Assembly (NCBI GenBank): GCA_026393455.1
Contig: JAPLAE010000018.1
Span: forward strand, 1-35,835
DNA length: 35,835 nt
DNA from: Actinomycetota bacterium
Lineage (GTDB): Bacteria > Actinomycetota > Acidimicrobiia > Acidimicrobiales > Acidimicrobilacustridaceae
Direction of reading: 5' to 3'
In this document: piece by piece, positions 1,943 to 12,671 of the stretch
How the letters are laid out: each line of letters begins with the position of its first letter
How positions within the stretch are numbered: position 1 is the first letter of the stretch
Notes under the pieces: model-generated
What the model saw: the letters and a program-made list of their open reading frames with translations, nothing else
The model's database searches: none
What the model was told of the DNA's origin: nothing
Position numbers and translations under genes: made by a program

Positions 1943-2824
1943 TCAGGGCTGGCCCGCGTGCGGAACTGCGACCTGCACCACTTCAATCGCGCCATTGCGT
2001 GCGAGCGGCGCGTGACGTGAGTCGGAAGTGGGCGCGGTCATGGCAAAAAGGTGTTTGCCTTCCGGGCCACCAAGCATGCACGCGTAGGTGTTCATTGTTG
2101 TTTCGACATCATCAAGAACAACGCCGCCCTCGCCGATACGCATGAGGCGCGGCGCAAGCGCGTTCGCGATCCAAACCGCGCCTTCGGCATCGAGACAAAT
2201 ACCGTCGGGCGCGGCCATCTCGGCGGAAAGATCAGCCCACACCCGTTGGTTCGAAAGTGAACCATCGGCATCAACGTCAAACGCGGTGAGGCGAAGCGCA
2301 AGCGTTTCGGCCACGATCATTGTCTTGCCGTCGGGCGTGATGACCATGCCATTAGGAAAAATCAAACCATCGGACGCGACATTGATGGTGCCGTCGGGAT
2401 CAACGCGACACATCACAGTTGTGAGCGAATCGGGGTCGGCGAACAGCCCTTCAATCCCCTGCTCATCGAGAAACACTTCGTAGTCGAAACCAAAATTGCC
2501 GATGTACGCGCGCCCTTGGTGATCGACTAGAAGATCGTTGGCGTGCCAGGTGAAGTGCGTGCCGAGATCGGCGTAAACCGTCAGCGACGAGCCATCCCAA
2601 CGCATGAGCTTGCGGTCGAGCATCGACGTGATGAGCAGATCGCCGTTGGGCAGCCAGCCGAGACCGGATGGCTGCGACTCAACCTCAACAATGCGTTCGT
2701 CGTTGCCGTCAAGGTCGATGGCATGCACGGCGTGGTCGTAAAAGTCGGAATACCAAAGGCGACCTTCGTGCCACCGAGGGCCTTCACCGAAGAACAGACC
2801 GTCTCGAAGGATGGTGGTGCTCAA
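1943..2824 (-). CDS. SMP-30/gluconolactonase/LRE family lactone hydrolase
   Basis: Predicted six-bladed beta-propeller metal-dependent lactonase, 293 residues, the usual family length. The expected divalent metal ligands can be placed at E14 (FGEGPRW), N158 (FPNGM) and D207 (APDGICLD), with N96 (WHAND) as the substrate-side Asn. No signal peptide, so cytoplasmic. The start codon overlaps the stop of the upstream alpha/beta-hydrolase lipoprotein gene as ATGA (2821-2824), indicating translational coupling; it is the last gene of a three-gene operon. The context suggests hydrolysis of a lactone or ester product in the same pathway as the two secreted hydrolases, but the substrate is unknown. Confidence 0.9.
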   Translation of the reverse strand: MSTTILRDGLFFGEGPRWHEGRLWYSDFYDHAVHAIDLDGNDERIVEVESQPSGLGWLPNGDLLITSMLDRKLMRWDGSSLTVYADLGTHFTWHANDLLVDHQGRAYIGNFGFDYEVFLDEQGIEGLFADPDSLTTVMCRVDPDGTINVASDGLIFPNGMVITPDGKTMIVAETLALRLTAFDVDADGSLSNQRVWADLSAEMAAPDGICLDAEGAVWIANALAPRLMRIGEGGVVLDDVETTMNTYACMLGGPEGKHLFAMTAPTSDSRHAPLARNGAIEVVQVAVPHAGQP

Positions 2825-4386
2825 GACGGCAATTTGGCGTTCTTGACGACGGTGCGCAGCTGAACAGCATCGGCTTCGAGGATGTTGCCCTTGGCAACCG
2901 CGTCATCAAGCGCTGCAATCCATGCTGCGTCGAATGCCGCACGACCGTTCGGAAGTGCCCATGATGCAAAGGCTGCTGGCGGGGCACCCACCGTTGTGCC
3001 GAACAACCCACAGAATGCGGAACCGGTTTGACCAAGTCCCGACAAGGTTGCAACGGGAACATCGACCTGTGGCGTTCGGATACCACCAGCGGCATTGCCC
3101 TTCGCGTCGAGTGCAAATGCGCCGCTGCTGACATCCAGCAACGGGCGCGACTCGGGAGCTTCGCCAGTACGAATCCAGTGATCGAGCGAGTTCAATGCCG
3201 ATCGCAAGACGTAGGTGTGCGGTCCGGCGTTGATGGGTGTCGAGCACGCCAATAATCCACCGTATAGAGAAGCCGGCGGGGTGAGCATCGCTTGGAACAA
3301 CGCTGCATCTCCGGCACCGTCACCGTTGTCGGTGTCACCAATTCCCAAGTTGTAGGCATCGGCATGCGCGGTGCCCGCAACTTCCCAGGATCGAATCATG
3401 TCGGTATCGGGTTGGCGAGCGCCGATGAAGTTGAGTCCCCTGCCCAACATGTCGGTTTCGGAAAGGAACTGCAGAACCGGAACCTTGAGATCAGTTCGGA
3501 TGCGCTGATCGGCAGGCATCTTCACATCAACATTCAGCGCAGCACCCGCGTTGCCCCGACTGTGGATGAGATAGCCATCCCAAATGTCAGTCTTGGGTCC
3601 GACTGCATTGACATAGGTCGTGAGTCGGAATGCAGATTGCGACTCGCCAATAGAAATGACTCGCTCGGGCTTCAGGCCGCCGAGCAGAACGTCGTTCGCG
3701 AACCAGGCAGCCGCACCGGTTTGCGTGTACATGTCATAGGAGTACTGATCGCCAGGATGCACAAGCGATCCGTAACGGCCGGGATCAGCAGCTTTCAACG
3801 TGTACCCAGCGACGAGACCCATTGATGGCCCGCCATCGATGCCAACCACCTGTGCCGACAGGCCAACCCACGCGTAGCCCTCGCGAATGAGTTCGACGTG
3901 TGTGTAGGTCCAGTCCGGCGCGGCGTCGAGACCACCGGAAACATTCAACCACTCAACAATCACGTTTCCGTTGAACTTGGCTGGGTCGGTCGGACGACGA
4001 ACGATGGCACGGGTCTTGTACGCGGCAGTGGAGGCTGGTTCAACGTTCCAATTTCCATCAACAGTTAACGCGTTAGCCGACTGGTATGCAGTCGCTGTTC
4101 CACTTATATAGAACTCCGACTGTTCGTAACCGGCCGCGGCAAGGTCGCCGCTGGCAGCAGCAATAAACGCTTGACCGCGACCACCCGTTGCAGGAACAAC
4201 CGTTGGCACAGTTACCGAATCACGCGATGGAGGCGACGGTGCAATCACTTTGGGACCTTTCGTCGATGACGAACTCTTCGAAGAACAGGCCACGAGCCCT
4301 ACCCCCAAGAACGTGACTGCCAGCAGAGCACCCAATCGTTGCCATGTTCGCATTTGCGTCACTTTCGTTGGGGCCGCCGAAACCAC
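2821..4386 (-). CDS. Secreted alpha/beta-hydrolase domain lipoprotein (copy 2)
   Basis: 521-residue predicted lipoprotein with an N-terminal hydrophobic stretch and lipobox LVAC (acylated Cys34 counting from the first start), followed by a Ser/Thr/Pro linker and a large alpha/beta-hydrolase domain of the Abhydrolase_10 type. Candidate catalytic residues are Ser249 in GESQS, Asp312 in SETDM and His341 in TAHAD. It is a clear paralogue of the gene immediately upstream (shared blocks such as VIVEWLNV, DWTY, GESQSA, RLTTYV, RQPDTD and TAHAD). The GTG start at 4386 lies 3 nt after the upstream stop; an ATG at 4353 gives a more typical signal peptide but has no clear Shine-Dalgarno. Its stop overlaps the SMP-30 start. 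Likely an esterase or lactonase at the cell surface; substrate unknown. Confidence 0.88.
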   Translation of the reverse strand: MVSAAPTKVTQMRTWQRLGALLAVTFLGVGLVACSSKSSSSTKGPKVIAPSPPSRDSVTVPTVVPATGGRGQAFIAAASGDLAAAGYEQSEFYISGTATAYQSANALTVDGNWNVEPASTAAYKTRAIVRRPTDPAKFNGNVIVEWLNVSGGLDAAPDWTYTHVELIREGYAWVGLSAQVVGIDGGPSMGLVAGYTLKAADPGRYGSLVHPGDQYSYDMYTQTGAAAWFANDVLLGGLKPERVISIGESQSAFRLTTYVNAVGPKTDIWDGYLIHSRGNAGAALNVDVKMPADQRIRTDLKVPVLQFLSETDMLGRGLNFIGARQPDTDMIRSWEVAGTAHADAYNLGIGDTDNGDGAGDAALFQAMLTPPASLYGGLLACSTPINAGPHTYVLRSALNSLDHWIRTGEAPESRPLLDVSSGAFALDAKGNAAGGIRTPQVDVPVATLSGLGQTGSAFCGLFGTTVGAPPAAFASWALPNGRAAFDAAWIAALDDAVAKGNILEADAVQLRTVVKNAKLPS

Positions 4387-7034: not shown

Positions 7035-8909
7035 TCAGGGCAGAACGATTGCGAAGGCCGGATCAGGCGGGTCGAGCATGCCGCGCAACGTGTCGAGTGC
7101 GGTCAGATCGCCACTCGCTGTTGCGATGCCTTGTTCAACGAGTGCTTCCAACGTCACCAAACCAACGACGAGCAGCAAAAGATGTGAACGCGGAACGCCC
7201 ACCGACAAGACGGCGCCGTCAACATGACGGCCAGCGACATTCGAAAGAACCCCATTTTCAAGTCGCAGAAGGTGTCGTTCGCCAGTGTCGGAAAGAGTCC
7301 AATTGATCGCGAACTGATGCTCGGACGCTTTTATGCCATCGAGGCGGGTCGCTACCGCATCAAATACCTGCGTCACCGAAATATGAGCCATGAGAGCGAG
7401 AGCGTTACGCCCCGCTGGCGGAGCAACGTCAATGCCGCGCAACTCTTGGGCACCAGTGAGGAAGAAATTTCGCCAAGTCGCGTTCTCTTGTGCGTACCCC
7501 ATCTGCATATAGGTACGAGCGAGTAACTCGCGCGCTTCCATATTTGAAGGGTCGGCGAACACAACGTGATTGACAACCTCGGCAACCCACCGGTAGTCGC
7601 CTTCTTCATAGGACTGTTCCGCTTTCGCGAGCGCGGCATCGGCACCACCCATGAACTCGACGTACTTCACGGCAGCAGCTTCGGGCGGGTGGGCCCATAG
7701 GTGTGCAGGGTTCCCGTCGAACCAACCCATGTACCGTTGATAGACGGCTTTCACGTTGTGGCTGACCGAGCCGTAGTAGCCGCGACAATGCCAAGACGAC
7801 GCGAGCGTCGGCGGCAACTCAATCATTTCCGCGATCTCGGCGCCGGTGAATCCCTGATTTAAATATCGCAGTGTTTGATCGTTCAAATACGCGTAGAGGT
7901 CGCGCTGCTTGGAGAGGTAATCGACGATGTTGTCAGTTCCCCATGTTGGCCAATGATGCGATGCGAATGAAACATCGCTATCTGCAGCGAACAACGAAAT
8001 GCTTTCATCAATGAAACCCGCCCATGCATGGGCATCGCGTACAAGTGCTCCACGAAGCGTCACGACGTTATGCAAATTGTGCGTTGCGTTTTCGGCCATA
8101 CAGAGCGCCCGAAAGTCGGGGAAGTGGAAGTTCATTTCCGCGGGCGCCTCGGTGCCGGGTGTCATCTGAAAAACAATGCGAACTCCATCAAGCACAAGTT
8201 CTTGGGCAGTGTGGGTGATGTCAACCGTTGGGGGAAGCAACGAAAGCGTTCCCGAGGACGGTGATGGACCAAGACCACACGTCATCTGACCTTCTGGACC
8301 GCGAGGTAGAAGAGTTCCGTACATATAGGTGGAGCGGCGGCTCATGGCCGCTCCAGCCTGCAAGTTTTCGCTTACGGCATGTTCGAGGAAATGTTCGGGC
8401 GCGACAATGGGAATATCACCAGGGTCACCGTTGGGAACCACTCCCCCAGCACCACCGAAGTGGTCAACGTGACTATGCGTATAAATGAGCGCGGTTACAG
8501 GTCGATCGCCCCGCACGGACCGATACAACGCAAGTGCGGCAGCAGCGGTTTCACAGGAAACGAGCGGATCAATAACGATCACACCCTTCTCGCCTTCCAC
8601 CATCGTCATGCTGGAAATATCAAGACCGCGCACTTGATAAATACCAGGGACAACTTCGAACAACCCGTCGATGAGATTGAGTTGGGCTTGGCGCCACAAA
8701 CTTGGGTTCACTGTTGCAGGAGCGTCGCCAGATGTGTCGCCGTATGGGCCAAGGTCCCATACGACGCGTCCGTCGGTTGCCTCAATCAGCGTGTCGTCAA
8801 GCGCAGCGAGTAATCCCCGCTGCGCATCAACGAAGTCCTGTTCATTATCGAACGGCAGATCCATCGTGACTGCGTGCTGATGTGCCGCAGTATGTTCAGT
8901 GACCGACAT
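7035..8909 (-). CDS. Type III alkyl/aryl-sulfatase (metallo-beta-lactamase fold)
   Basis: 624-residue enzyme of the SdsA1/Bds1 type that cleaves sulfate esters such as alkyl sulfates. The N-terminal metallo-beta-lactamase domain carries the binuclear zinc motif THSHVDHFGG (His145, His147, Asp149, His150), followed by family blocks AENATHNLHN and SHHWPTWG. A helical dimerisation region follows, then a C-terminal SCP2-like domain from about residue 500. Length is normal for the family. No evident signal peptide, so cytoplasmic unless exported in an unusual way. The ATG at 8909 follows GAGGTCGCACC. The gene is monocistronic on this reading, about 70 nt downstream of the histidine kinase stop on the same strand, so read-through from the two-component operon is possible. 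Confidence 0.93.
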   Translation of the reverse strand: MSVTEHTAAHQHAVTMDLPFDNEQDFVDAQRGLLAALDDTLIEATDGRVVWDLGPYGDTSGDAPATVNPSLWRQAQLNLIDGLFEVVPGIYQVRGLDISSMTMVEGEKGVIVIDPLVSCETAAAALALYRSVRGDRPVTALIYTHSHVDHFGGAGGVVPNGDPGDIPIVAPEHFLEHAVSENLQAGAAMSRRSTYMYGTLLPRGPEGQMTCGLGPSPSSGTLSLLPPTVDITHTAQELVLDGVRIVFQMTPGTEAPAEMNFHFPDFRALCMAENATHNLHNVVTLRGALVRDAHAWAGFIDESISLFAADSDVSFASHHWPTWGTDNIVDYLSKQRDLYAYLNDQTLRYLNQGFTGAEIAEMIELPPTLASSWHCRGYYGSVSHNVKAVYQRYMGWFDGNPAHLWAHPPEAAAVKYVEFMGGADAALAKAEQSYEEGDYRWVAEVVNHVVFADPSNMEARELLARTYMQMGYAQENATWRNFFLTGAQELRGIDVAPPAGRNALALMAHISVTQVFDAVATRLDGIKASEHQFAINWTLSDTGERHLLRLENGVLSNVAGRHVDGAVLSVGVPRSHLLLLVVGLVTLEALVEQGIATASGDLTALDTLRGMLDPPDPAFAIVLP

Positions 8910-8980: not shown

Positions 8981-10345
8981 TCAGGGGTTTGACGCCGTCG
9001 GTAACTCAAACCAAAACGTGGAACCGAGCCCCACAACTGAATTCACTCCGTAGGTTCCGTGATTGCTGCTGATGATCGAAGCCACAATCGCAAGACCGAG
9101 TCCGTTGCCGCCGGCAGCACGCGATCTTCCTGAGTCGGCTCGGTAGAACCGATCGAAAAGTCGAGGCAAATCTGCTTCGACAATGCCTGGCCCTCGGTCG
9201 GATACTTCGACCCGAGCTCGACCATTGTTCATCGACGCCCTCAGAATGATTTCGGCAGAGGTATCGGTGTAACGGAGCGCATTTGTGGTGAATGCAGTGA
9301 TCACCTGCATGACGTGATCGCGATCGATGAGTGCGACCACTGTTTCGGGACACTCAACAGAAACTGGGCGACCTGGCTGCACAACAGTGATATCCGATGC
9401 GAGATCACGTAAAACACCGCCTAACTCCACTGGCTCCGGAGTTGGCGCACCGTGTTCATCGAGTTTGGCCAGAAGTAGGAGGTCGTCAACGATGCGTCCC
9501 ATGCGGGCGGCTTCATTGCCCATCCGCCGCATTGCGTCATCGAGATCTTCTTTACGTTCGAACCCACCCGCTTCGTAAAGAGCGGTGTACCCGCGCAATG
9601 TGGTCAGCGGTGTTCGTAATTCATGCGACGCATCGGAAACAAACTGGCGTAATCGAGTTTCTGTGGCCTGCGTCGTATCAATCATCGTGTTGAGTGCATG
9701 ACCTAAACGAGCGGCTTCTGTTCCATCCGAGGGCACGTCGACACGTGTGTCAATAGAACCGGCGGAGATGGCATCGGCCGCCTCGGTCATGCGACGGATT
9801 GGTCGAATGCCAAGACGAACAACCCAGAACACCACGAGACCCATAACGCTCAGCACGATGAGCGATGCGATTCCTTCGGTGATGATCAGCCGACGAATTG
9901 CGGCTTCGGTGGCACTCATCGAAACACCGAAAATGCTGATGGAGCCATCATTCAGTCGCGTCTCAATAATCCGAACTCTGTTCACCGAACCGCCAGACGT
10001 TCGAACCGTTAATGGAGTTCCATAAACGGGCACCGTTGGAAGTTCAGGCACCAATTCGAGATCACTTACGGGCGCAACGAATGTCTGCAGGCGCCCATCA
10101 GAGGCAACGCGACCAATGTAGAACTCGGAAAACTCACTCTGAAGCGCACTCTGGGCATTGGGGCGCGTGGCGTTGTTCGCCAAACGCGAGATCACCGCAC
10201 CCGCCGCAGGAGTCAGGTTCGTCAGTTGCTGATCAACCTGATCCATCAGATACGAACGTTGAACCAGAGTAACTACGACACTGCTAACGCCAAGCAAAAC
10301 AAACATGGACACAAACGCTGCAACCAATCGAGACCGAAGTGTCAT
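8981..10345 (-). CDS. Two-component sensor histidine kinase
   Basis: 454-residue membrane kinase. Transmembrane helix 1 lies at about 7-29, an extracytoplasmic sensor domain of about 125 residues follows, then transmembrane helix 2 at about 156-179, HAMP at about 180-231, and the dimerisation/phosphoacceptor domain with SDASHELRTPL (phospho-His241). The ATPase domain has the N box around TTNALRY (Asn355) and G boxes DRGPGI and GNGLGLAI. The start codon overlaps the response-regulator stop by one base (TAATG at 10343-10347), so the pair is co-translated. It presumably phosphorylates the regulator encoded upstream. Architecture is that of the MprB/PrrB-like EnvZ family; the signal is unknown, though the divergent secreted Cys-repeat protein is a plausible target or partner. 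Confidence 0.94.
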   Translation of the reverse strand: MTLRSRLVAAFVSMFVLLGVSSVVVTLVQRSYLMDQVDQQLTNLTPAAGAVISRLANNATRPNAQSALQSEFSEFYIGRVASDGRLQTFVAPVSDLELVPELPTVPVYGTPLTVRTSGGSVNRVRIIETRLNDGSISIFGVSMSATEAAIRRLIITEGIASLIVLSVMGLVVFWVVRLGIRPIRRMTEAADAISAGSIDTRVDVPSDGTEAARLGHALNTMIDTTQATETRLRQFVSDASHELRTPLTTLRGYTALYEAGGFERKEDLDDAMRRMGNEAARMGRIVDDLLLLAKLDEHGAPTPEPVELGGVLRDLASDITVVQPGRPVSVECPETVVALIDRDHVMQVITAFTTNALRYTDTSAEIILRASMNNGRARVEVSDRGPGIVEADLPRLFDRFYRADSGRSRAAGGNGLGLAIVASIISSNHGTYGVNSVVGLGSTFWFELPTASNP

Positions 10346-11028
10346 TACGGTTCCCGGATGCTGTAGCCGATACCGCGGACCGTATGAATGAGTTTTGGAT
10401 CGATGTTGTCAACCTTCTTGCGCAAGTTCGACATAAACGATTCGATAATCGATGACTCTCCATCGAAGTCGTACTGCCAGACATGATCAAGGATTTGCGC
10501 GCGCGTAACTGCTCGACCTGCATTCGAAGCCAAGCAGAAAAGCAACCTGTATTCGGTGGCGGAAAGAAAGACCTCTATTTCGGCACGCCATACGCGGTGG
10601 GCATCGTTATCAATCACTAAGTCATGAATCTGGATGCGAGACGAAAGCGGTGAGCTGCCGCGTCGGCGTAATTGGACCTGGACGCGAGCCACCAACTCCT
10701 CAAGGACGAACGGTTTCACGATGTAGTCGTCACCGCCGGCCATCAGCCCGTGCACTTTGTCATTGGTGTCATCACGAGCTGTGAGAAAAAGGACTGGTGC
10801 TTCGCACCCTGCGTTTCGGATCCGGCGTAAAACTTCAAAACCATCAAAGTCAGGCAACATGACATCAAGCACGATCGCGTCGGGTGCGAACTTCTCGACC
10901 GCATCCACTGCTTCTCGACCGGTCGCAGCAGCCCGAACCTCGCAGCCGTCCAGCTTTAGGGCCGATGCCACCAGAAATGAAATGTTCTCTTCGTCATCGA
11001 CCACGAGAACCTTGGGAGTCGTTGTCAT
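10345..11028 (-). CDS. OmpR-family response regulator
   Basis: 227-residue DNA-binding response regulator. The receiver domain has acidic pocket Asp11/Asp12, phospho-acceptor Asp55 in VLDVMLPD, Thr83 and Lys105 (VKPF). The C-terminal winged helix (about 128-227) contains TEYRLLFCLASNAGRAVTR and ends in VDNIDPKLIHTVRGIGY, typical of OmpR/PhoB regulators. It is the first gene of an operon with the kinase. Upstream, in the divergent gap to the secreted Cys-repeat gene, CTTGAGA occurs twice exactly 11 bp apart, the spacing expected for tandem binding by an OmpR-type dimer, so autoregulation is likely. The ATG at 11028 lacks a strong Shine-Dalgarno. Confidence 0.95.
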   Translation of the reverse strand: MTTTPKVLVVDDEENISFLVASALKLDGCEVRAAATGREAVDAVEKFAPDAIVLDVMLPDFDGFEVLRRIRNAGCEAPVLFLTARDDTNDKVHGLMAGGDDYIVKPFVLEELVARVQVQLRRRGSSPLSSRIQIHDLVIDNDAHRVWRAEIEVFLSATEYRLLFCLASNAGRAVTRAQILDHVWQYDFDGESSIIESFMSNLRKKVDNIDPKLIHTVRGIGYSIREP

Positions 11029-11061
11029 GAAGAGAGCCTGCCTGTCGGGCCTGTTCCGAAC

Positions 11062-11115
11062 CTCAAGAGAACCTTGAGATCGGCTTGAGAACGAATGTTC
11101 CAGCCGATCTCAAGG
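11062..11115. promoter_or_regulatory. Candidate response-regulator operator between divergent genes
   Basis: CTTGAGA at 11073-11079 and again at 11084-11090 are direct repeats with 11-bp phasing. They lie within a perfect 14-bp inverted repeat: CCTTGAGATCGGCT at 11072-11085 and AGCCGATCTCAAGG at 11102-11115, with a 16-bp spacer. A further inverted copy CTCAAG at 11062-11067 pairs with the first CTTGAG. The block sits between the regulator gene (start 11028, minus) and the secreted-protein gene (start 11213, plus), so one site could control both. Confidence 0.6.
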
Positions 11116-11212
11116 GTACGTTGGCCATCACTACAGGTGGGTTCGCCAAGGTATGAGGGTCTCGACGGGTTGTCCATCGAGACTCCCCCAGAAGAACACA
11201 AAGAGGTCAACC

Positions 11213-11686
11213 ATGAAATCCAACAAGATCCGCACCCATATCGCAGCCGGCGCACTCGGTGCCGTTGCAATCACCGGTTTGTTTGCTGTCAGTTCTGCAA
11301 GTGCGCAGCCCGGCGATCAGACCACCCAGGCCGCACAAGGAAAGGGCGCATTCATCAAGTCGCTCACTCCTGACCAACGCGCATGTCTCAAGAGCAACGG
11401 CGTGGCCAAGCCCGATCACAAGCTGACCACCGAAGAACGCGCAGCCGCCAAGGCAAACTTGGAATCCGCAGCAACCACCTGCGGCGTGACACTTCCGGCT
11501 CGTCCCGCTGTGGCGAAGCTGAAGGACATGCGTGCTGACATCAAAGCTCTCAGCGCTGACCAGAAGAATTGTCTCAAGACCAACGGCATCACGAAGCCTG
11601 ACCACAGGCTTACTAAGGTCGAACGTCAAGCTGCGCATGCAGCCCTTGAAGCAGCGGCTCAAACCTGCGGCATTGCCCTGAGTTAA
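11213..11686 (+). CDS. Small secreted protein with two cysteine-containing repeats
   Basis: 157-residue exported protein. A signal peptide with hydrophobic core at about 10-28 ends at ASA-Q (cleavage after residue 31). The mature part contains two homologous repeats at about 51-94 and 113-156. Each starts as L(T/S)xDQ(R/K)xCLK(S/T)NG, continues with KPDH(K/R)LT and ends in a helix and TCG. The cysteines (58 and 90, 120 and 152) have identical 32-residue spacing, so one disulfide per repeat is likely. The ATG at 11213 is preceded by AGAGG; an upstream in-frame start at 11153 would spoil the signal peptide. It is divergent from the two-component operon and a likely target of it. I recall similar single repeats in uncharacterised actinobacterial secreted proteins; function unknown. 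Confidence 0.86.
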   Translation: MKSNKIRTHIAAGALGAVAITGLFAVSSASAQPGDQTTQAAQGKGAFIKSLTPDQRACLKSNGVAKPDHKLTTEERAAAKANLESAATTCGVTLPARPAVAKLKDMRADIKALSADQKNCLKTNGITKPDHRLTKVERQAAHAALEAAAQTCGIALS

Positions 11687-11735: not shown

Positions 11736-11780
11736 TCACATCTGAAGGCGGAAAATGACGCTATGTGGGAGAATGTGCGG

Positions 11781-12671
11781 ATGAAACAGCGGACAGCATC
11801 GATGGGGCTTCCGCGTTTCGTTCTGCCTGTTGGGCTTCTGGCAGTGACCGCGCTCATTGCATTCTTGATGACACAGCCTCTGACGTCGACATCTCAATCA
11901 GCCGCCGTCACAGTCGAGTTGAACCCTTCGCCGACAACTCAAGACACGGGAACGATCCCACACGATCATGTCGCTGATGCCGCTGATGTCGCCAGCCATG
12001 ATCACACGCAGGTTGCTGACACCGCAGTTACCGATCCAACTCATCAACACGCCAACGCGGTAACGAACCCCTCTGACGCGGGGGCAACTGATGCACATGT
12101 GCACGACGCTGCTGCTCCCCCCGTCCCGACCGCTGGACCAATTGTTTCGGTCAATGATCCACGCCTCACACCAGCCCAGCAAAGTGCTGCAAGCGCACTT
12201 TTGGTTGCATCGCGTGCGGCGATGGCGTCGCTACCGACCACCACAGCTTTGGCCGCAGGTGGGTACGTCTCGGCAGGAGACAATTCTGGCGGTTTACAGC
12301 ATTGGGTGAACGACTCCTATACCCATGATGGCCGAGAACTTGATCCGAGCCGTATCGAGTCATTCGTCGTCAATCCCACTTCAGGTCGCACTGTGGGTGC
12401 CATGTTCACGCTCGAGCCAGGAAAGACCATGGCGAATGTGCCCAATATCGCCGGCGAACTCACGATTTGGCACGTCCACCCAACTATCTGCTTCAGTAAC
12501 ACTCAGATCTGGCACTTTGTTTCCTTCGCTGTCAATAAAACGTGCCCGACCGGTTCAACGCCGCGAGAAGTGCCTCCAATGATGCACGTGTGGTCTGACG
12601 ATCCTCCGTGTGGTCCATTCGTTGGCGCTGAAGGCCACGGCACCACGAGTTGTAGCGCTCACGCTCACTGA
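11781..12671 (+). CDS. Membrane-anchored or exported His-rich protein, function unknown
   Basis: 296 residues from the ATG at 11781, chosen because GGGAG lies 8 nt upstream; an ATG at 11763 lacks this. An N-terminal hydrophobic helix (about 12-33) is followed by a low-complexity Asp/Ala/Thr region rich in His (HDH, SHDH, HQH, HVHD), which looks like a metal-loading segment. The C-terminal half is a folded domain beginning near LTPAQQ, with GGYVSAGD, LQHWVNDSY, DPSRIESFVVNP, WHVHPTICFS and four Cys (near ICF, TCP, PCG and SCS) that could make two disulfides. It ends in AHAH. It is downstream of the Cys-repeat secreted gene but separated by a terminator. Copper or zinc handling is an inference from composition only. 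Confidence 0.8.
   Translation: MKQRTASMGLPRFVLPVGLLAVTALIAFLMTQPLTSTSQSAAVTVELNPSPTTQDTGTIPHDHVADAADVASHDHTQVADTAVTDPTHQHANAVTNPSDAGATDAHVHDAAAPPVPTAGPIVSVNDPRLTPAQQSAASALLVASRAAMASLPTTTALAAGGYVSAGDNSGGLQHWVNDSYTHDGRELDPSRIESFVVNPTSGRTVGAMFTLEPGKTMANVPNIAGELTIWHVHPTICFSNTQIWHFVSFAVNKTCPTGSTPREVPPMMHVWSDDPPCGPFVGAEGHGTTSCSAHAH

Follow-up and report, generated by a model that had tools for sequence, protein, structure and literature searches.

The window, i.e., the whole stretch of 35,835 nucleotides that was analysed, carries a two-component operon that diverges from a gene for a secreted protein. The three genes flanking the intergenic region of interest are as follows.

8981-10345, reverse strand: sensor histidine kinase (HAMP, HisKA, and HATPase_c domains), with a one-base overlap with the regulator gene
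10345-11028, reverse strand: PhoP-like response regulator of the OmpR/PhoB family (Pfam Response_reg and Trans_reg_C)
11213-11686, forward strand: secreted Cys-repeat protein with two LTxxQ..C...C helical repeats (from alignment, model, and context)

Pfam matches to PF00072 (E 2.2e-29) and PF00486 (E 3.2e-23) place the response regulator in the OmpR/PhoB family, and its closest sequence in the PDB is that of M. tuberculosis PhoP (E 7.5e-71). Further along the reverse strand, the product of 7035-8909 presumably resembles the alkyl sulfatases with a metallo-beta-lactamase fold. On the forward strand, the gene downstream of the secreted protein (11763-12671) encodes a His-rich, exported-looking product of 302 residues, for which Pfam gave no matches at E<=0.001.

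The secreted protein itself is 157 residues long and consists of two repeats of the form LTxxQxxCL..G(V/I)xxP...CG(V/I), with 11 invariant columns in the alignment, four of which are cysteines. AlphaFold2, when run with 16 sequences, predicted six helices as two repeats of three (mean pLDDT 75.7, pTM 0.46). A PDB fold search with this model (pTM 0.46) returned no match at E<=0.001, and no family in Pfam or NCBIfam matched the window protein at the same threshold.

Repeats and half-site arrays between the divergent genes

On the forward strand, CTTGAGA occurs at 11073-11079 and 11084-11090, with an inverted copy (TCTCAAG) at 11108-11114, and a perfect 14-bp inverted repeat has its arms at 11072-11085 and 11102-11115. 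These 11-bp-phased repeats and the inverted repeat, both noted in a preliminary description, are indeed present, local, and beyond chance. With up to two mismatches, the tandem CTTGAGA-N4-CTTGAGA gives three matches in the window against 0.17 expected, a number reached by none of 100 shuffled windows, and the window holds no second perfect 14-bp inverted repeat with a loop of up to 40 (about 0.005 expected). As for the same repeats recurring elsewhere in the genome, this did not hold for the perfect tandem, which has a single match in the whole 2.28 Mb assembly (82.9% complete), at this locus, and the tandem with up to two mismatches gave 17 matches genome-wide against 11 for its reversed control. 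The loose pattern alone is thus uninformative genome-wide, and we dropped a regulon search with it, as its matches are barely separable from the control. Two genome matches carry a single mismatch, one within a gene (L113) and the other (L114) flanked by two genes of the opposite strand, which we take to be transporter-like and desaturase-like.

Comparison with relatives sets the register at CCTTGAG-ATCG-GCTTGAG (11072-11078 and 11083-11089), shifted leftward by one base from the CTTGAGA reading. The full structure spans 11035-11152, with candidate half-sites from 11050 to 11137 that reach beyond 11062-11115, and is laid out as follows.

11035-11040, reverse strand: -10-like hexamer CAGGCT of the predicted regulator promoter (clade column A 19/23, T 17/23)
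11050-11056, reverse strand: regulator-side promoter-proximal half-site GAACAGG, 9 bp upstream of the -10 (A20 13/23, G21 16/23)
11061-11067, reverse strand: regulator-side half-site CTTGAGG, in the 11-bp register and conserved in the genus alignment
11072-11078, reverse strand: regulator-side half-site CTCAAGG (CCTTGAG on the forward strand)
11083-11089, reverse strand: regulator-side distal half-site CTCAAGC (GCTTGAG on the forward strand)
11072-11115, no strand: inverted repeat, as two facing boxes, both with an ATCG spacer
11098-11104, forward strand: secreted-gene-side distal half-site TTCCAGC
11109-11115, forward strand: secreted-gene-side half-site CTCAAGG
11120-11126, forward strand: third register position GTTGGCC, a degenerate half-site or -35-like element
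11131-11137, forward strand: secreted-gene-side promoter-proximal half-site CTACAGG (clade A20 21/21, G21 20/21)
11147-11152, forward strand: -10-like hexamer CAAGGT of the predicted secreted-gene promoter (clade A33 21/21, T37 21/21)

Rather than the one site between divergent genes that had been proposed, the sequence thus reads as two opposed arrays of four 7-bp half-sites each, at 11-bp pitch, with one array per divergent gene. The sense strand of each array reads (YTCnAGS-N4) repeated, and 9 bp separate the last half-site of each from a -10-like xAnnnT. In keeping with the original suggestion, the spacing matches that of a tandem dimer of the OmpR/PhoB family, with 7-bp half-sites and 4-bp spacers beside a regulator of that family. 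Because the arrays face each other, an inverted repeat arises; moreover, both spacers in the window are ATCG (both are ATCA in L035), and through this likeness the inverted repeat appears longer than the part commonly required. In the secreted-gene hexamer CAAGGT, the C, A, and T are invariant in five genus members, and TACGTT (11117-11122) was dropped as the -10 of this gene, since the invariant A and T fall at 11148 and 11152. For the regulator gene, the final T of the -10 and the ATG are 7 nt apart, from which a leaderless mRNA is predicted.

Conservation of the arrays and spread of the secreted gene

A 92-protein tree groups every regulator that has N, S, or T at PhoP position 220, 33 in total, into one clade (support 100/99). 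The window regulator belongs to this clade and M. tuberculosis PhoP falls outside it, so that the window regulator is not a PhoP orthologue; it also carries N212S, V213I, Y217F, and Y220N. For the comparison of upstream regions, we used 91 regulator loci, made up of 80 named contigs and 11 further relatives from our own regulator search (other loci of that search, some of them the same records as named contigs, were excluded), and the removal of near-copies gave 86 regions. Self-similarity over these 86 nonredundant regions is highest at an offset of 11 bp (569, with 147 expected; z 19.8), with a second peak at 22 bp (z 12.6) and smaller ones at 6, 9, 12, 15, and 18 bp that likely reflect codon periodicity. 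At p<=0.03, 18 of 30 clade loci and 42 of 56 others have a box of two CT-core half-sites, spaced at 11 bp, ahead of the regulator gene, and 19 of 30 clade loci versus 4 of 56 others have a further box on the opposite strand; by the scoring used, 12 of the 30 clade loci are without a significant upstream box and 11 without a significant second one.

On the secreted side of the clade, the 37 columns that follow the anchored box in the direction of the gene comprise a half-site at 16-22 (A20 in 21/21, G21 in 20/21), then 9 bp, and then xAnnnT, with A33 and T37 each in 21/21; this column table holds 21 of 23 loci (L006 and L048 excluded), and a table with all 23 spans 20 columns. The TTG within GTTGGCC is likewise conserved in the clade (T6 16/21, T7 19/21, G8 15/21). 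On the regulator side, the corresponding -10 columns are A33 in 19/23 and T37 in 17/23, and among the non-clade regulators the -10 likewise lies 9 bp from the last half-site (A 32/49, T 37/49). Many non-clade PhoP-like regulator genes were seen to have the box, the 9 bp, and the xAnnnT, closely followed by an ATG, and leaderless autoregulated regulator genes may be common among the PhoP-like group. With a profile built on 30 non-genus units, each kept only if the A and T were present at the -10, the two window promoters take the top two ranks over both strands (25.1 and 23.9; next 16.3), though with a profile of regulator-side units alone the secreted side drops to fourth in the window. The third-ranked match (3372-3429, forward strand) was taken as chance, as it lies inside an opposite-strand gene (2821-4386, reverse strand). 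Conservation of the repeats in close relatives, on which the initial proposal had been staked, thus did not turn out to refute it, and conservation, spacing, and orientation all recur outside the genus.

Within the genus, regulator orthologues (at least 76% identity) occur in 6 of 21 genomes, and the secreted gene occurs in the same six, always adjacent; a seventh genome has a regulator relative at 53% identity (L017) from another branch, without the secreted gene. More broadly, 22 of 33 clade regulators have a Cys-repeat gene upstream, in one case (L048) at a distance of over 1 kb, and none of the 58 other regulators has one. Regulator and Cys-repeat gene together are found in Acidimicrobiales, Intrasporangiaceae, and Propionibacteriaceae. 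Loci L040, L042-L051, and L055 carry this module in the latter two families, far from Acidimicrobiia, and this distance suggests horizontal transfer or old loss. In four clade loci without the Cys-repeat gene (L010, L039, L058, and L072), the divergent gene is lipoprotein-like, with CMRxNGVxFPDP-type motifs whose likeness to the Cys-repeat was judged by eye in the translations of L039 and L058.

Operator specificity and a further candidate target

For M. tuberculosis PhoP, the published account gives the box as TCACAGC-N4-TCACAGC, i.e., repeats of 7 bp set strictly 4 bp apart, and describes tighter binding on longer arrays (PMC4832192). In the PhoP-DNA crystal structure, Tyr217 and Tyr220 contact the first bases of TCACAGC, and Glu215 the complements of its last two bases (PMC4832192). 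The window shows the PhoP-type operator arrangement of at least two tandem 7-bp half-sites with 4-bp spacers, though its half-sites (CTCAAGG and TTCCAGC) do not match TCACAGC; the terminal AGS agrees and the first bases differ. Here, we noticed that the half-site is SCTkGAG in the clade with Asn, Ser, or Thr220 and SCTGnGA with Tyr220. In fact, at half-site position 6 (read as SCTGnGA, forward-strand boxes), G is found in 84 of 92 cases with Tyr220 regulators and A in 31 of 44 with Asn/Ser/Thr220 regulators. The half-site bases that differ in the clade are those contacted by residues 217 and 220 in the crystal structure. On the tree, the specificity change has a single origin, so the covariation of residue and half-site counts as one event; it is consistent with a change of specificity and is no repeated test of one.

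A regulon model (R1), built from sequence only, combined 28 units, namely 26 of the 30 profile units and the two window units. Over the 21 genus genomes, R1 found both promoters in G000, G006, G005, and G010, but only one in each of G014 and G008, a point against the regulatory model below. Matches at E<=1 occur in 12 of the 21 genomes, and the remaining listed ones are weak. Among the weak matches, those in G000, G006, and G005 (E 0.016, 0.033, and 0.064) are orthologous (L147, L148, and L149) and precede an exported DUF1800 gene (PF08811, 3.5e-96) with the same four-half-site layout; for the first genome, the feature is given below.

G000, contig C68, 4858-4912, reverse strand: candidate array before the DUF1800 gene (L147)

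The exported DUF1800 protein is thus a probable third target, and its gene is predicted to be leaderless. By inspection, both box half-sites fit YTCnAGS in all three genomes with the regulator and in none of five without it, these five being drafts (78-92% completeness) in which the regulator was not found and the DUF1800 orthologue, at 80-92% identity, is preceded by box half-sites with one or more changes. DUF1800 matches were found in 12 genomes, of which four at about 50% identity stand outside this comparison. The difference is only suggestive, however, since the promoter profile score of G001 (-3.8), one of these five, is on par with those of the regulator-bearing genomes (-3.9 to -6.6).

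Regulatory model, alternatives, and known systems

The sequence, spacing, orientation, cross-family conservation, and match between half-site and recognition helix were all computed, and on these grounds we consider it highly probable that the intergenic region is a divergent control region where the adjacent PhoP-like regulator acts on two arrays, toward its own operon and toward the secreted gene. Autoregulation together with control of the secreted gene, as envisaged in the preliminary description, appears well supported, though not proven, and conservation points to both. The phosphorylated regulator would bind head-to-tail on the 7-bp half-sites, which, with their 4-bp spacers and 11-bp pitch, would lie on one helix face. 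From one array, it would govern the regulator-kinase operon (autoregulation, probably with a leaderless mRNA) and, from the other, the secreted Cys-repeat gene. Binding itself, its dependence on phosphorylation, and the sign of regulation are what we infer from the sequence. Given binding, we lean toward activation, since an array just upstream of the -10 occupies the position of a class II activator.

A reversed sign, in which the regulator-bound array on the secreted side represses and the system switches the secreted gene off, seems to us rather unlikely. Its appeal is that four-half-site arrays extend over the -35 region, at which a bound protein can keep RNA polymerase out, and that the conserved TTG (11121-11123) could be a -35 element occluded by the regulator. 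Yet the TTG hexamer would stand 20 bp from the -10, a long distance if the promoter were to be strong without a regulator, the 9-bp gap to the -10 is as in class II activators, and the regulator's own promoter and those of the wider family have the same layout. It is still more doubtful that the arrays belong to another OmpR-family regulator of the genome. There are nine own-genome matches at E<=0.001, with the adjacent one included, and the DUF1800 promoter retains a partial array in genomes where the adjacent regulator was not found; against this, adjacent regulator and arrays co-occur across families, the half-site differs in step with that regulator's recognition helix, and intact DUF1800 half-sites go with its presence (3/3 versus 0/5).

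The inverted repeat had been put forward as a potential hairpin or cruciform, and if it worked as such, or as an RNA structure, the repeats would be a by-product. As a single strand it does fold at -19 kcal/mol versus -7.35 when shuffled (z -5.4), and over five genus sequences 88.6% of cells pair, with 2 of 14 pairs changed on both sides, a result matched by 48 of 500 shuffles. Nonetheless, pairing is imperfect in four of the five aligned members, transcription from either predicted start site would begin downstream of the inverted repeat, and across the 12 clade loci whose two boxes both reach p<=0.03 the boxes are separated by anything between 8 and 47 bp (L036 has a gap of 5 and L039 one of 64, each with one box at p 0.04-0.05). 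Moreover, the nonredundant loci L045, L046, L049, and L051 retain the secreted-side box only. Since relatives keep the boxes but not the distance between them, the symmetry is explained by two boxes that face each other, and we set the hairpin aside as a very improbable function. That these are chance repeats in intergenic DNA has next to no likelihood; the loose genome-wide pattern, not clearly above its reversed control, speaks for it, and both the shuffled windows and a column conservation across families with p down to 3e-16 speak against it.

On a broader and more speculative note, which we hold to be doubtful as a whole, the PhoP-like branch might have changed its operator specificity once (Y217F with Y220N/S/T, and the outer half-site bases swapped), and thereby insulated a small circuit of sensor and regulator, a Cys-repeat protein with CpxP-like feedback on the sensor, and, for the present genus, the exported DUF1800 protein, with regulator and secreted gene lost or gained as a unit. 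A literature search did not show this module among the matches listed. What the locus offers is a testable DNA code for a PhoP-like branch in Actinomycetota, in which helix residues are set against half-site bases from sequence alone, and a promoter layout (four half-sites, 9 bp, and xAnnnT) that permits regulon prediction in uncultured species. An uncharacterised family of secreted Cys-repeat proteins thereby gains a putative regulator, as does, tentatively, the DUF1800 gene.

Among known systems, the cpxRA-cpxP locus of E. coli has a two-component operon divergent from the gene of a small exported helical LTxxQ-like protein, with one control region. The window locus is similar in pairing such an operon with a divergent small exported helical LTxxQ-like protein over a common control region, though the Cys-repeat protein, unlike CpxP, has conserved cysteines and no detectable homology. 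PF07813 (LTXXQ) matched 1 of 16 Cys-repeat members (E 0.0071) and not the window protein itself, and with this and the lack of a PDB fold match at E<=0.001, we dropped homology to CpxP. In class II promoters with a pho box, PhoB binds direct repeats at 11 bp, and some 9-10 bp lie between the last of them and the -10. Both the 11-bp direct repeats and the distance from the last half-site to the -10 are similar here, whereas four half-sites per promoter, two opposed arrays, and a different half-site set the window apart. As for M. tuberculosis PhoP, the base-reading N212, V213, Y217, and Y220 are replaced by S, I, F, and N in the window regulator, and the half-site begins with CT, not TC, with the AG before the last base retained; alike, by comparison, are the tandem 7-bp half-sites with a 4-bp spacer, the possibility of longer arrays, and the conserved Glu215 and Ser216. 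Judged from the sequence, the mechanism would thus be an ordinary one (tandem PhoP-like binding, autoregulation, and one divergent target) on an unusually regular, conserved, and clade-specific operator.
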